Of a DNA stretch of 64,000 nucleotides, positions 2,010 through 61,224 are shown piece after piece; the first letter of the stretch is position 1, and each line of letters opens with the position of its first letter. The notes below the pieces were generated by a model. It did no database searches and was not told the DNA's origin. It saw only the letters and a list, made by a program, of their open reading frames with translations. Origin of the DNA: Odontesthes bonariensis (lineage: Eukaryota; Chordata; Actinopteri; Atheriniformes; Atherinopsidae). The DNA lies in NCBI RefSeq assembly GCF_027942865.1, contig NC_134526.1, positions 10,324,284 through 10,388,283 on the forward strand, read 5' to 3'. Position numbers and translations under genes: made by a program.

Positions 2010-5000
2010 CTTTTTTTTCTTTTTTTTTAATTGTCCATCCTGTGCACTTTGACCATATGCTTCTGAAACTGGAGCATTACAAGCATCCAATCCCCTCACA
2101 CACAAGAGCTCAAGTCTGGTCAAACAGTAAAGGTTATCTGAGGCAGAAATCCACTCAGAATCTGTAGACACAATTGTAATTCCTGTTGGCTCTTAATTAT
2201 CAGATAATGTGGTTCCCTGCATGTACTTCAATGTTGCTGAACAACTATAAAGTTAGTGATATTATTTTAATTAATTTTGTTGTTCCCCTCTGTTAAAGAT
2301 TTGTAGCTGGAGTAATTGGCAGGGAACGTATCCCCACTTTTGAGAGAATGTTGTGGAGAGTTTGCAGGGGGAATGTGTTCCTGCGGCAGGCAGATATTGA
2401 AGATCCTCTTGAGGACCCAACAACAGTCAGTACTGTTCATAGACACTTCATGATTACAGTAAACCAACACGGATTGTGAGGTTGGTTAGATGTGATGGTT
2501 ATAACTGTACATCGTTTTTTACAGGGTGACCAGGTCCACAAGTCGGTCTTCATCATATTCTTCCAGGGAGACCAGCTGAAGAATAGAGTTAAGAAAATCT
2601 GTGAGGGGTAAGTGACTCGACAACATCTGAACAATGTTTAAAGTTTTCTTGACCAACAGGTCTTTGTTTATATTTCTTACAGGGTAAAGTCTAAAATCCA
2701 ATCATTTGAATTTAAGGCCTTAAAATGTCTAAAATTCTCTTTATCTCATAAAATGTCTTGAATACGATTTGAAAGGTCTTAAAATTTATTGACATGACTT
2801 TTATTGAATACAAATATATAAACTTCAGTCTCGCTTTTAAATGTTTCGATTTTTGAGGACGCTATAACAGAACTAAAGTACCTGTGCAGCCCGGTCAGAA
2901 TTTATCGAGCACAACCTGCTGTATAGTTTGCTGTTCGTGGTTGCTAGCAGCGCCGTGACTGAGGAGCGGCTAATCAGTTAACGCTTTGTTTAAGATGGAT
3001 AAATGCAAATTTGACAATTTGTGGCTTCAGAACGAACAATTTACCTCACGGTTGAAGCCGGTTGATGGAAATATTTGTGAAGCGCACGAGAAAAGTTTGA
3101 AACTTTGCACATTTGGCATCAAGGCGTTGGAGTCCCATGCCAAATCCCTAAAGCATAAAGCGGTCTTAAAATGGCAGTAGCAAACGCTCTCCATCAGCCA
3201 GTATTATTCCACATCAGGATCTGGAGCATCGAGGTCCAGCGCGCCCCGCTCTGCTACAACTCCAGTTGACCTCCGGACAGCGTTTGGGTCTACGCCCACA
3301 ATAAGAGCGGAGGTGTTCTGGACTCTTCACACAGTAGCGAAGCACCAGTCAGATACTGGCAATGAGGACATTGAGCTGTTCCAGACCATGTTCCCGGATT
3401 CCGAGATAGCGAAAAAGTTTAAGTGTGGAAAAGACGAGACCAGCGTCCATTGCGCGATTTGGATTAGCCAATTTCATCAAGAGAGACCTTATCTCCAAAG
3501 TTAAGGGCCCGTTCGTGCTGATGTTCGACGAATAAATTCATATATTTTGTTGAAACCTGCAGAGACCCTGTTCTTTACCTGTCCTCAGATTCAGAGCAAC
3601 ATTGTACCCGTGTCCAGAAACCCCCCAGGAGAGGAAAGAGATGCTGGCAGGAGTGAATGCTCGGATTGATGACCTGCAGATGGTAAATAAGCATTCAGAG
3701 AAGACACCTACATGCAGCTGACTTTTTAACACTGACGGGCAGATAAACCCTCTCAACTAGTTTGTTCTCCTTTTTTCCTGGTTTCTGCTGGGTCAGCAAG
3801 ATGTTTTTTTTTTTTTTTTAAAGAGGAAATTTCTCAAGGCATAAAAATAGTACCGTAGTCTCTCTTTACAGTTCAGATTTCAGATAAGCGTCTAATCCAG
3901 AAAACAGTTTTTAATGAATGACATGGGTTGTGTCATTTCACAGTAACTACTGTACAGAACAATGTCCTCCTTTCCACTAAAAGCACAAATGTTTTTGTGC
4001 TGTGGAGTGTCCTCCCCAGTGGCTCATTACCCACTGCAAGATAAAGTAGCCCAAGGGAATCGGTCCGTCCTTCCATTTTGCTCACGATATCCATCTTGTA
4101 TCTCTTCCTTGTAATGCCATGTGCGCCCGTGGGGAGCTTTTACCTCATGTCTCACAAAGTCTGAACTGCAGCTCATAAACATAAAATGTGGCTGTTTCTG
4201 TCCAGCATCATGTACTCAAAGCACCGACTGGTGGAACCACGAAACGATGTGCACAAGGCAAGGTGCTTGATACCTAATGCACATCTTCCCTGACATATCA
4301 GTCGATACCCTCTCAATGATATAAATGCTGTGTAATGGGGGTCTTGGTGTTTGTGGATTTAGCGTTGAGCACGTTGTTATTTGGGTATGTGAGCAGAATG
4401 ACAGAATGGCATGCGTGTGGAAGAATGAAAAGCTACTTGGACTGTAGCCAGCAATGTTTAGACATTGCCTCGACAGTGGATGAGACTGTCTGTGGGCAAA
4501 CAGCACAGAGCTTAAATTTCCTGCTATTTGCTGATCATGGGGTTAGCTTTAAATGTGAGTCATACAGCAGCATACCTGAGGATATCCTGTAATCCTTATG
4601 GGAACACCCAGCGGATTAGACGGGCTGTTACTCAAATCCCTCGCTGTTCGGTCTACTAAGTGTAAACTTTGTCTGTAAACATCAAGAAATATGTAACTAA
4701 TTGTAGACATTTTTGTTTTGCTGTTTGGATGTCAGTAGTCTGTCGGTTTCCATAGTTTCCATCTGCATTTAGAAGTGACGCGTAGAGAAATATGAATGGA
4801 AGTGGCGAAATTGCTCTTGTCTGCTCCTCAAGGTGTTGAACCAGACTGAGGATCACAGGCAGAGGGTCCTGCAGGCTGCAGCCAAAACAGTCAGAGTGTG
4901 GTTCATCAAGGTGAGGAAGATGAAGGCCATCTACCACACCCTCAACCTCTGCAACATAGATGTCACTCAGAAGTGTCTGATCGCTGAAGTGTGGTGTCCT

Positions 5001-53835: not shown

Positions 53836-55725
53836 ATGGACAAGAAGGTGGTGCTGATCACTGGCTGCTCCTCTGGTATTGGTCTCAGCCTTGCTGTCCG
53901 GTTAGCCTCTGACCCCGACCAAACATTCAAAGGTAACAGCATTTGACATACAGTATATCTATCTATCATGATCTGTTACACTGTTGGTTATTTATATTTT
54001 TTATATCTTGAACTGGTTCTGGATCTGTGCCATTAAGGGCTATTAAAGCCGGTGAGACACTTTATACTATGTATTGTTGTGATTCTGGATTAAACAAATG
54101 GCTTACTCTGTCAAACTTGCCATGTACAAACGTTTTGCTTGGAATCCATTCATGTTTCCTTATTTGCATTTCAGCCTGAGATCTTTGTGCAAATACTCAT
54201 TTTTCATACATGAAACTAAGTGCTGCATTCTGTTTAGTCTATGCCACAATGAGGAACCTGGCCAAGAAGGAACGTCTTCTAGAGAGTGTGAAAGGCCTGC
54301 ACAGGGATACCTTGGAAATACTCCAAATGGACGTGACTGACCAACAATCCATCTTGGATGCAAGAGACAGGGTTGTGGAAAAACGAGTGGACATTCTGGG
54401 TATACGCCTGTTGGAGTATGTTCTGGTTAAGACTGGTCTTGATAGGATAGAATTTGCATGTGTTTGATATCTTTGATATTCTCAATATTTGCAGTGTGTA
54501 ATGCTGGTGTGGGTTTGATGGCTCCACTGGAGGTGCAGTCTTTAGACTCAATGAGGCAAATTCTGGAAGTCAATCTCGTGGGAACTATCCAGACCATTAA
54601 AGCCTTCCTCTCAGAAATGAAAGCTCAGGGCCAGGGCCGCATACTGGTCACTGGCAGCACTGGAGGGCTTCATGGTGAGATGAACCAATGAGTCAGATAT
54701 CACTAACTATCAGTGTTCCAGTTTTTTTAAATTATTGTTGATTCATAAAATTCCCAATTAACCCATCTTTTTACTCTCATAGGTCTCCCTTTTAATGAGA
54801 TGTACTGTGCCAGTAAATTTGCAATCGAGGGAGCATGTGAGAGTTTGGCCGTCCTCCTGAAACACTTTAACATACAGTGAGTTTAAATATTTTCAGCATG
54901 ATTGACTGTAAATGTTTATGAGGATAAATGCCTGAACGTTTCTCTCCGCAGCGTAAGTCTCATTGAGTGTGGTCCAGTCAACACCAACTTCCTGGCTAAC
55001 CTGCAGAAGGTTGAGCTTGGAGATGCTTCGCTCAAGGAGGTCGATACCCAAACACTCAGTCTGTATGAAAAATATCTGCAACACTGCAGCTCAGTTTTCC
55101 AAAATGCTGCACAAGACACTGAAGACATTGTAAAGGTATGTAGTGTATCTACAGTTTCAAAAGTTTGTCATCAGTTTGTGCATCTTCGATACTGGCGAGT
55201 CAACACAGTGTGAATGTTTAAAGCCTGGTATTGGTCCCACCATAAATCAATAATACATTATTAGTTTTCCAATCTAATGATATATTTCAACTAAATAAAT
55301 CATTTCAACTATACTGATGGAATCAAGATCAACACAGACTGACAACAAATGACACACACAATTGTGCATGAGTAGCATTTTGACAATCTTTTGCTTTAAA
55401 AAAACACCAATATGATGCATTATTATAGATTCATTGACATGAAAAAATCCCCAAGACATGAGCAGAAATCTTTTTTGTAAAAAAGCTGAGATGCTGTGTA
55501 AAATGTTGATACGAATAGGATTAAATCATCAACTGTTCACCTTTTTTTTTCTGTGTTTTTATTCTCAAGGTATTTCTCACTGCCATCCAGTCACCCAGCC
55601 CTTCATTCAGATACTTCACCAATGGTGTCATGCCACCTCTTACCAAACTGAAGTTCACAGAACCAGATGGATCCCAATACATCAGTTCCATGAGCAAGAT
55701 GATTTTCTCAACTGAGGAACAATAA
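53836..55725 (+). CDS. hsd17b1: 17-beta-hydroxysteroid dehydrogenase 1 (estradiol 17-beta-dehydrogenase 1)
   Basis: Short-chain dehydrogenase/reductase that reduces estrone to estradiol with NADPH in the last step of estrogen synthesis, mainly in gonads. Exons: 53836-53932, 54238-54399, 54495-54674, 54783-54876, 54952-55135 and 55570-55725. They total 873 nt (290 aa plus TAA), and all splice sites are consensus. SDR landmarks are the cofactor-binding TGCSSGIG (residues 9-16), CNAG (88-91), catalytic Ser141 in VTGSTGG, and YCASK with Tyr154 and Lys158. [14 protein letters not shown] after the active site is the family steroid-side signature, and [16 protein letters not shown] is close to the human protein. 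It is shorter than human HSD17B1 (about 328 aa) at the C-terminus. All catalytic residues are present, so it should be active. No TATA box is obvious upstream. Confidence 0.95.
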
Positions 55726-57963: not shown

Positions 57964-60900
57964 ATGAACAATAAAACGACGTCTCTCCTCTTCAGGGCGC
58001 TGATGGATATGAATGAAGCCCCCTTTTCGAAGCTCGTGCGGGGAAACACCAAAAGACTACAGTTCAGGTGAGTCTAAACTTTCCACCACAGAGGCGCGAA
58101 CAGGTAGGAGCAGTCTCATGCTGGGACCAAGTCTTTTTTAGTCACACACTGTATATGGTAGATTAATCGCTATAAATTTGAATGTAAAGACTATTCTTCA
58201 GCATGTTTACCATCTAGTAATTTACTGGACGCGTTTTTTAGTGTTTCAACACTTGGCAGACTTAACAGCCATGGGACTTCTTTTATTGTTGTAATCAACT
58301 TGTCTCCATACAGATTACATGTATTACAGTCACAAACGAAAATAAACTAAATGTTTACCCAGTTATTTTAATCAAATAATAGTGTGAATCAGCTTTCTCT
58401 GAGACTATTGTTCTTAGTCCAGGTGAACTTGATGCGCACAAATTCAAACTAACATGCACATGATGGGCTAGCTGTTATTCTAAGTTTACAGACTAAGTGC
58501 TGTCACATGGCAGATGTACCAACACCAAGTAATCTTAAGATGTTACACTTCAGTATGTTTAGAAATGCATTATTTTCTCTTCTTAGAAATCTGGGTTCTT
58601 GTGGGATCTTGGCTGCAAGGAGGAGCAGCCTTCAGCTCTGCCCCGTCACCCCCGTCTGCACACCCAGCCGGAGCTTCATCAACCTGGCTGCTCCTATCAG
58701 CACCCGCAGGATAGAGTACACCGAGTGCCAGATATTAGAGTGAGTGCCACTATATGACATTTAGGAGGTCAAGAGCTACTGTAAGAAGACGATAATCCTA
58801 AGCAAGAAAAAGTTCTTGACTTAGTTTTCCTACCTCCATTAATATCACCAGGTTGTACTGAAAAGAAAACTAATAAAACTGAAAAATAATGACAGTACTT
58901 GATAAAAGTAAACGTAAACCTTAAAAAGGCAAAACATTGCGCTTAAATAATTTGATTTTAATTTGATTGGTTGTGTCTTTGTTGTCTTGTGACTGTGTGT
59001 TCAGGTTCACTCCAGAGCAGATGTACAATGTGGTGGCCGATGTGGACAAGTACCAGCATTTTGTTCCTTGGTGCAAGAGGTCAAGGATGATGAAGAGGCC
59101 AAGCGGTGACATCTGCGCGGAGCTTGTAATAGGTTTTCCTCCCATCACTGAGCGATACACTTCTGAGGTCACCCTTATTCCAAACCACCAAGTCAAAGTA
59201 AGTCGTTATTCTGTTTAATTCATGAAAGTAACCAAAACTATAGCTATATTAATCTCAAAATCACCCCGAAAACCCCCCCACTCGTCAGTTTTGATAATAG
59301 TGATGTCGATTTGTGAACATTCCTTTCGGGCGTAGGACATTTTTAAAGTGATATATTTTCAAAAGGTTTAGACAAATCTAAATGAAAGAATATGTTTAAT
59401 ATTAAGTTATTTCTGGCTTATTGTGACTTTGTATATCCTATATCTTGTCCACTGTCTTTTTTTTTGTCATAAGACTCAGTCCTTTATTCTATTCTGCAGT
59501 CTCCCAGAGCTCAGTAATTAGAAACCTCACTGTTTGAAGTTGTTACCTTTTTGCGATCAATAATAACAGACTGTGTGTTGTGAAACAGGCTGTGTGCACT
59601 GATGGATCCCTCTTCAGCCACCTTGAAACAATATGGAGGTTTGGCCCTGGTGCCAAAGACCTACCAAACTCCTGCAAAGTGGATTTCTTTGTAAGTTATT
59701 TATTTTTATTTTTTTTCACAAGATAAAATGAAATTCTGACATTTGTGACAACAAATGAGCTCTGATTTCAGTTGAATATCTTACACATAGTACTTGGGAG
59801 ATCAGAATGCCCGCTTAAGGAGAAACTAATTACAACTTTTGTGAATGGATTACCGGTTGAGAGGAAGTGTTGAGTAAAATCTCATTATGGTCTATGTTTA
59901 GTCCTGAAGAGCATGCCAGTGTCCTTTGGAGACTGAAAATATCTGTAATGGTAGAGAAGAGTGTTAAAGAGCTGCTGCAGGGAGGTTGACCTTAATGTTT
60001 GCACAGATTACTTTGGCGTCAGTCAGGGACTGGTTGGATTTCGGTTGAATATGTTAAAGGGGAACTCCGGGACATTTGAAGCGCATTTCCATTGCTAGAG
60101 GTTGTCAAATACTGATAGTAGGACACAGAGAGGTGCAAATCTGCGCTCCCTGTGTGGAGATAGCGCTGTTCGCTCAGCCTGTCATGCGAGGCTAATACGT
60201 GGTGGCTAGGGGCAAGCGCTAACCCTTCCACGTAAAACAACAACTTGCACACTGCAGAAACGTCACACCACTTTATAAACCATCCGACAATAAAGTCACA
60301 AGCCTTACCATCAAAACCATATGCATGGTTCTCACATTACTGGCATGGGGAGGTTACAAAACAACTTTATAAACAGCATGTAACTCACCGGTTAGTTGTA
60401 CACTCGCGCATGTGAAAGCCCAAAAGAGTCAATGGACGATAATCCCATTTACAAAACAATTATCTTCTCTAGAAAAACTGCGTTCAAGTATTTAAAACAT
60501 TACAACAATACATGCCCAGTAATATTGTTTTAATGTTTTAAATACTTGAACACAGTTTTTCTAGAGAAGATAATTGTTTTGTATATGGGATTATCGTCCA
60601 TCGACTCTTTTGGGCTTTCACATGCGCGAGCGTACAACTAACCGGTGAGTTACATGCTGTTTATAAAGTTGTTTTGTAACGTCCCCATGTCAGTAATGTG
60701 AGAACCATGCATATGGTTTTGATGGTAAGGCTTGTGACTTTATTGTCGGATGGTTTATAAAGTGGTGTGACGTTTCTGCAGTGTGCAAGTTGTTGTTTTA
60801 CGTGGAAGGGTTAGCGCTTGCCCCTTAGCCACCACGTATTAGCCTTGCATGACAGGCTGAGCGAACAGCGCTATCTCCACACAGGGAGCGCAGATTTGCA

Positions 60901-61224
60901 CCTCTCTGTGTCCTACTATCAGTATTTGACAACCTCTAGCAATGGAAATGCGCTTCAAATGCCCCGGAGTTCCCCTTTAAGTAAGAGATGCTGTGGATCT
61001 GATGACCTTTTGAGGTTTGCTTCTTGTGTCTTCTGTAGGTGTCATTTGAGTTCAAGTCTCTTCTGCACTCTCAGCTGGCCAGTGTGTTCTTTGATGAAGT
61101 GGTGAAGCGAATGGTCAGTGCCTTTGAGTCACGAGCAGCAACACTTTACAGGAACCGGCCGTCGGCATCATTGAGGAGGCAGTCGGTTCCTCAGACTTTT
61201 AACCAAACCCTGCGTTCCTGCTGA
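57964..61224 (+). CDS. coq10b: Coenzyme Q-binding protein COQ10 family (START domain, mitochondrial)
   Basis: COQ10 proteins bind ubiquinone in the mitochondrial inner membrane and support its use in respiration. Exons: 57964-58067, 58587-58739, 59005-59197, 59589-59690 and 61039-61224. They total 738 nt (245 aa plus TGA). An in-frame ATG at 57949 would add five residues; 57964 has the better context (A at -3). The N-terminal 60-70 residues are basic and poor in acid, as for a mitochondrial presequence. The START/polyketide-cyclase domain starts near residue 80. Landmarks are [38 protein letters not shown], and [26 protein letters not shown] near residue 40 resembles COQ10B more than COQ10A. 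The C-terminus after ATLYRNRP differs from the usual vertebrate ending, and [12 protein letters not shown] is also divergent. So this may be a third paralogue, and the b suffix is tentative. Confidence 0.88.
60054..60980. mobile_element. Long foldback MITE (near-perfect inverted repeat) in coq10 intron 4
   Basis: The left arm is 60058-60510 and the right arm 60523-60976, separated by a 12-nt spacer (CATGCCCAGTAA). Aligned by eye, the arms differ by nine substitutions and one 1-nt indel over about 454 bp, about 98% identity. Both outer ends read AGGGGAACTCCGG inward, and TTAA lies directly outside each (60054-60057 and 60977-60980), suggesting a TTAA target duplication. No transposase is encoded; reading frames in it are mirror images of each other. 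It fills about two thirds of the 1348-nt intron and ends 58 nt before the last coq10 exon. Confidence 0.9.

Follow-up and report, generated by a model that had tools for sequence, protein, structure and literature searches.

A palindromic TTAA-flanked element in the last coq10 intron of Odontesthes bonariensis belongs to an abundant foldback family with breakpoints concentrated near the hairpin tip

The long inverted repeat that lies within the final coq10 intron represents a single copy of a mobile element that has the shape of a hairpin and is abundant in the genome. Taken alone, this insertion is ordinary. Our reading of the family, to which we assign a probability of roughly 0.73, is that it is a high-copy, non-autonomous foldback of the Kolobok type, inserted at a TTAA in the coq10 intron, whose arms are homogenised while it amplifies and whose resident palindromes are cut at the tip.

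Alignment of the arms within the window (the whole 64,000-nucleotide stretch of DNA that was analysed) confirmed the palindrome with a 12-nt spacer and TTAA on both sides that the first-pass annotation had described at 60054..60980 (927 nt, no strand assigned), the TTAA at each end being counted in the element and presumed to be a target-site duplication. The left arm (60054..60510, plus strand, 457 nt) starts TTAA-AGGGGAACTCCGGG, the spacer forming the hairpin loop (60511..60522, plus strand) reads CATGCCCAGTAA, and the right arm (60523..60980, minus strand, 458 nt) is an inverted copy of the left arm with 10 differences, with AGGGGAACTCC found next inward of the TTAA on either side. Over 458 aligned columns these amount to 9 substitutions and 1 single-base indel, giving an identity of 97.8%; the arm length of about 454 bp given earlier does not hold. 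The last coq10 intron (59691..61038, plus strand, 1348 nt, donor GTAAGT, acceptor TGTAG) had been described as filled by the element, which in fact covers 927 of its 1348 nt (69%), ending, as was correctly stated, 58 nt before the last coding exon (61039..61224, plus strand, stop included). Assignment of the gene is supported by matches of its protein to Pfam Polyketide_cyc (E 8.5e-27) and to one PDB entry, 1t17 (E 5.7e-10), which we take to be a COQ10-like protein. Upstream of coq10, coding stretches of a short-chain dehydrogenase were observed at 54200-55700 of the window, with Pfam adh_short matching one 59-aa piece.

RNA folding of the element gave -864 kcal/mol, whereas 20 shuffled sequences averaged -248 (z -76.5), which excludes a chance origin of the palindrome, and coq10 pre-mRNA should carry a hairpin of about 455 bp. 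Fourteen stop-to-stop ORFs of 40-105 aa overlap the element. Of the 12 ORFs lying within it, 6 were searched (most of the others repeat these from the opposite arm), and none matched Pfam above cut-off, so that the element appears to have no recognisable coding sequence. Nothing in the analysis points to a function in coq10, or to the ADAR editing, hairpin-derived small RNAs or influence on splicing first suggested, and the likeliest effect on the gene would be none. The arms have a CpG observed/expected ratio of 0.75-0.81 against 0.36 elsewhere in the window, which is consistent with a recent arrival. Rfam at gathering scores gave 0 matches over the whole window, and no copies of the element end (allowing up to 3 mismatches) were found in the window beyond its own two.

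The copy survey covered the host genome (945 Mb, 187 contigs). A search with the arm gave at least 75 matches, from the best 40 scored of 1,970 candidates, and the 17-nt end TTAAAGGGGAACTCCGG was identified at 3,063 exact positions (1,542 and 1,521), with 0 for the reversed control pattern. The first-pass annotation had proposed such a search, the lack of other copies being taken as a sign of an artefact; the many copies found are at odds with that outcome. Forms were counted among the first 100 listed of the 3,063 exact ends, all on contig C1, which sort into 30 pairs and 40 single ends. The pairs comprise 20 full palindromes of 922-930 bp (modal 928) and 10 deletion derivatives, while the single ends comprise 6 full palindromes whose far end deviates from the exact 17-mer, 5 internally deleted copies, 1 copy carrying another inserted element, 3 ends without arm homology past 17-25 nt and 25 copies without a far end. 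The full palindrome is the commonest unit in this sample. Among 38 full palindromes, the 12-nt spacer was identical to that of coq10 in 30 and differed by one base in 7, that of the remaining copy (L072) having been read out of register.

Two other sequences were noted among these loci. One is another family, seen in L079 and L082 (about 3790-4452), which has the 17-nt end in common with the first but differs in its interior (TATTTTCAACATTAAGCC...); the L082 element is of about 665 bp on the minus strand, with an inverted end (one mismatch) 665 bp on and an interior that in part reads, by eye, as inverted. The other, starting TTTAAAGGGATAGTTCGC and possibly another TTAA element, was found in L086 and in L117, where it sits at the point of interruption of the arm.

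The TTAA target, AGGGG ends and empty sites point to a non-autonomous element of the Kolobok/T2 type. In the available part of the Xenopus study (PMC6004289), Kolobok ends are defined as starting with two purines (RR), and T2-MITE/Kolobok elements are given a TTAA target and AGGRR ends. The coq10 element has TTAA at both ends and AGGGG within it at both ends (TTAA-AGGGG), which agrees with both descriptions, and a single TTAA was found in the empty-site paralogues of two damaged relatives, L086 and L081. The TTAA-specific mobilisation first suggested from the coq10 sequence is supported by the 3,063 end copies and by these single-TTAA paralogues, which belong to relatives and not to the coq10 locus. 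The end of Xenopus XKol A5, AGGGGAACT (entered in Table 5 of that study as AGGGGAACTATCATGA), is identical to the family end over 9 nt, or 13 with the TTAA, the ends diverging beyond (PMC6004289, as far as available). High copy number and non-autonomy are likewise shared with T2-MITE/Kolobok elements as described there; a possible difference is that the whole element here is one palindrome of about 928 bp. MITEs are usually under 600 bp according to the accessible text of PMC3573991, and the present family has the high copy number of such elements, whereas its modal length of 928 bp is above their usual size.

Non-autonomous Kolobok elements share their ends with an autonomous element whose transposase combines THAP, DDE and H2CH. 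A THAP profile search of the genome gave at least 150 matches, from the best 150 of 1,545 candidates scored. Among four THAP loci compared, L129 and L130 were found to be copies of one element starting TTAA-AGGGGAA and 98.9% alike over 4.2 kb, from TTAAAGGGGAAATGAAG on. L130 encodes a THAP ORF (E 2e-16), the THAP frame of L129 holds a stop, and both also bear an ORF of 656-670 aa (656 aa in L130), for which only sub-threshold matches (RVT_3, E 0.017; MULE, E 0.02) were obtained; a PDB search with the long ORF of L130 gave only short designed-repeat matches. Extension of one copy (L130:3387-7601, running into L133) identified a near-matching inverted end, with about 5.37 kb between the ends. 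The ends that this element has in common with the foldback family amount to TTAAAGGGGAA, 11 nt only. A Kolobok-like transposase source is probably present in the host genome, as a candidate driver of the foldback family. A further THAP-containing locus, L131, had no TTAA-AGGGG among the ends listed by the scan. L089, which has an exact end and a different interior, was considered as an autonomous copy and rejected, as its 9.9-kb stretch L109 appeared LINE-like by eye, with no transposase seen.

Comparison of the arms was performed on the same 38 full palindromes, 24 of them from C1 and 14 from the best-scoring search, a set that includes the coq10 copy and is biased in its favour; L113 and L114 were left out. 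Arm divergence was 2.3% within copies against 5.1% between copies (2.4% and 5.9% for C1 copies alone), the between-copy distance being 5.08% for like arms and 5.07% across arms. None of 10,000 shuffles was as low as the observed 2.3%, the minimum being 4.0%. For only 21 of 76 arms was the partner arm itself nearest or joint nearest, which presumably reflects the sharing of variants between copies of a subfamily. Of the 476 carrier cases of variants found in at least 6 copies, 281 had the variant in both arms, with 90.9 expected, while variants found in one sampled copy only were in one arm in 110 of 120 cases and in both in 10. The shared variants show that homogenisation of the arms took place in amplifying lineages, and the arms of resident copies appear to drift apart after insertion. 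The close likeness of the coq10 arms had been suggested to reflect either youth or gene conversion; both matter, at different levels, the shared variants marking arms made alike during amplification and the private ones being mostly one-armed.

In the coq10 copy, the uncommon base at arm mismatches (judged against 74 other arms) lies in the left arm in some cases and in the right in others, as expected if its arms have drifted since insertion. Some of these uncommon bases recur in other family copies, and 4 of the 9 substitutions are of the CG-to-TG/CA type, two per arm. Two of the ten private both-arm variants form the pattern of L095, for which 128 exact genome occurrences were found; the 100 listed places contain 22 plus/minus pairs (20 at 766 bases, one at 765 and one at 460) that are both arms of one copy. 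On these counts the L095 pattern is a subfamily marker, which would assign the making alike of arms to amplifying lineages, and private both-arm variants were consequently no longer used as evidence that resident copies undergo repair. Clustering of arm mismatches in tracts was also rejected, as their spacing is near random (median gap 18 vs 20; gaps under 10 nt 36% vs 31%). In the 38-copy alignment, patches with many multi-allelic, often transversion variants (columns about 100-140 and 320-400) adjoin stretches that have few.

Forty deletion derivatives from C1 (25 truncated and 15 internally deleted) were mapped on a scale of 928 positions with its centre at 464. An endpoint at 464-532, that is 0-68 nt past the centre, was identified in 32 of the 40 (P 3e-29 against a uniform distribution, with the interval picked after the data were seen). 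The eight exceptions are L076 and L107, which lose the centre, and L083, L090, L099, L104, L108 and L110, which break elsewhere (L108 at 448, with L104 being complex). Without L013, the break lies no more than 50 nt from the centre in 20 of 24 truncated copies, on the far side in 19 of them and on the near side in 1. Internally deleted copies were oriented with their fuller arm first, which fixes the side of the breakpoint by construction but not its closeness to the centre. The best-scoring set (40 loci minus 14 full palindromes, the full-length L045, the insertion-split L036 and L013, which was counted on C1) had 22 of 23 breakpoints inside 464-532, these copies having been chosen for one full arm and thus testing only position within the other arm. 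The median tail past the spacer was 10 nt (55 endpoints at 464-555), and with endpoints just past the centre the retained piece usually ends as a short hairpin.

For two half elements the loss could be read against an empty site. Paralogues L134 and L135 of the LINE flank of L086 have a single TTAA at the corresponding point. Compared with them, L086 has lost its far arm, its flank resumes 614 bp on, and the junction carries an inverted local copy of 19 nt. L081, compared to the empty-site paralogue L033, was found to lack the far arm and 191 bp of flank. No usable empty-site paralogue was found for the other 8 of the 10 half elements with wide flanks, L124 matching L098 in clashing orientation. 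Flanks of half elements encode reverse transcriptase/endonuclease (RVT_1, E 7e-21 in L134; Exo_endo_phos_2, E 1.9e-8 in L120). At the half-element junction of L041, a small inverted templated insert was seen by eye.

The proposed course of events is as follows. A transposase made elsewhere would recognise the AGGGG ends. In amplifying lineages the arms would repeatedly be made alike, so that a variant that spreads ends up in both, the likeliest route being correction of mismatches in the folded hairpin or arm-to-arm copying around transposition. After insertion, the two arms of a resident copy would drift apart. Resident palindromes may extrude hairpins or cruciforms and then be cut, the candidate nucleases being inferred from yeast and human palindrome work; for human palindrome translocations, diagonal cruciform cleavage, tip cleavage and Artemis/ligase IV are described in the available part of PMC4940405. 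The cut end would then open at a point between a few and some tens of nucleotides beyond the tip and be ligated to a partner that had been resected, with resection halted inside the other arm giving an internally deleted copy and resection into the flank giving a half element. Breakpoints near the tip fit such hairpin or cruciform processing, with off-centre opening of the tip followed by joining. More tentatively, at somewhat less than even odds, the germline may keep hundreds of natural openings of hairpins of about 450 bp near the tip with one side lost, while the same folding would let one arm be copied or corrected from the other and thereby keep amplifying lineages palindromic ("hundreds" being an extrapolation from 25 truncated copies per 100 exact C1 ends to 3,063 ends). 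If this is true, the short inverted tails past the tip would be the equivalent of the P-nucleotides of V(D)J joining.

The main rival to cutting is a replication switch, in which a polymerase copies one arm and continues round the tip, the nascent strand then pairs with itself after a few tens of nucleotides, and synthesis starts again downstream by template switching. It likewise predicts an endpoint just past the tip, as well as local inverted templated inserts such as the 19 nt of L086 and, by eye, that of L041, and the breakpoint data here fit either process; against it, plasmids with human palindromes break at the centre without replication (PMC4940405, in its available part), and we consider it possible but doubtful. 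That the palindrome or the half elements are artefacts of long-read hairpin handling in sequencing or assembly is extremely improbable, hard as long palindromes are to sequence. The coq10 arms differ at 10 places with changes on both arms, the palindrome ends at TTAA, and the unit of about 928 bp recurs genome-wide. Furthermore, half-element junctions enter the flank without N, no N being present in any examined locus, and the flanks of L081 and L086 are collinear with their LINE paralogue except for the missing 191 and 614 bp, a templated insert being present in one of the two. An assembly fold-back was rejected on these arm differences, genome-wide copies and collinear flanks with losses.

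Two other accounts concern the class of the element and the likeness of its arms. The TTAA target would also suit a piggyBac-type element, and a piggyBac-like transposase is encoded by two ORFs in the same genome (L132:5362-6756, minus strand; DDE_Tnp_1_7, presumably the piggyBac family, E 5.9e-46, plus a THAP match), possibly representing another TTAA system. However, piggyBac ends begin CCY, those of the coq10 element being AGGGG, and no TTAA-AGGGG end was among those listed by the L132 scan. The doubt already raised over piggyBac ends proved well placed, as the ends match the AGGRR description of T2/Kolobok (PMC6004289, available part), and a piggyBac origin is very unlikely. Selection on an RNA hairpin through compensatory change, as proposed for zebrafish Angel lncRNAs, could also keep arms alike, and the RNA hairpin of the coq10 element is indeed very stable. 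For two zebrafish lncRNAs with Angel elements, compensatory changes unique to their copies are reported and read as selection in the available text of PMC3636048. Here, both-arm variants extend across copies, of which 24 out of 38 were taken for their position on C1 regardless of transcription, the one both-arm change that was tested is the marker of a subfamily found 128 times, and a DNA-level process would account for both-arm variants without RNA function, which makes selection on RNA very improbable as the cause in this family.

Elements of comparable shape occur in other hosts. Angel elements of zebrafish are almost wholly palindromic. By their description in the accessible part of PMC3636048, they resemble the present family in high copy number and in long inverted repeats giving a stem-loop. 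The Galileo/Foldback-like elements of Drosophila have long terminal inverted repeats (TIRs) of very variable length, which in that study are suggested to draw recombination and conversion to them; unlike the family here, Galileo belongs to the P-element superfamily, with 7-bp target duplications and TIRs of up to 1.25 kb (PMC3573991, available part). Yeast Alu quasi-palindromes (PMC8053094), which include a construct with a 12-bp spacer, QP12, and human PATRR translocations (PMC4940405) are alike, in the parts of these works available, in breakage at the centre, hairpin-capped breaks and opening of hairpins before joining. Those cases are engineered or disease loci, whereas natural transposon copies with one-sided deletions are described here.

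Among the matches listed in open-licence literature, no paper was found, by title or start of abstract, on this foldback family or on near-tip breakage in a transposon family, and priority is not claimed. To our knowledge, what has been learnt of how long palindromes are processed in animal germlines comes mostly from transgenes, yeast constructs and a small number of human translocations. The value of the family lies in a single known starting sequence that is present in very many copies and has been broken many times, with the tail past the tip measurable and the flank lost measurable where an empty site exists. Concerted change of arms in this family calls for caution where compensatory changes in a hairpin transposon are taken to prove that its RNA structure is under selection, and suggests that a DNA-level cause is worth considering for the Angel-lncRNA changes as well (PMC3636048, in its available part). 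The damaged relatives of the coq10 element may document the ways in which long palindromes break.
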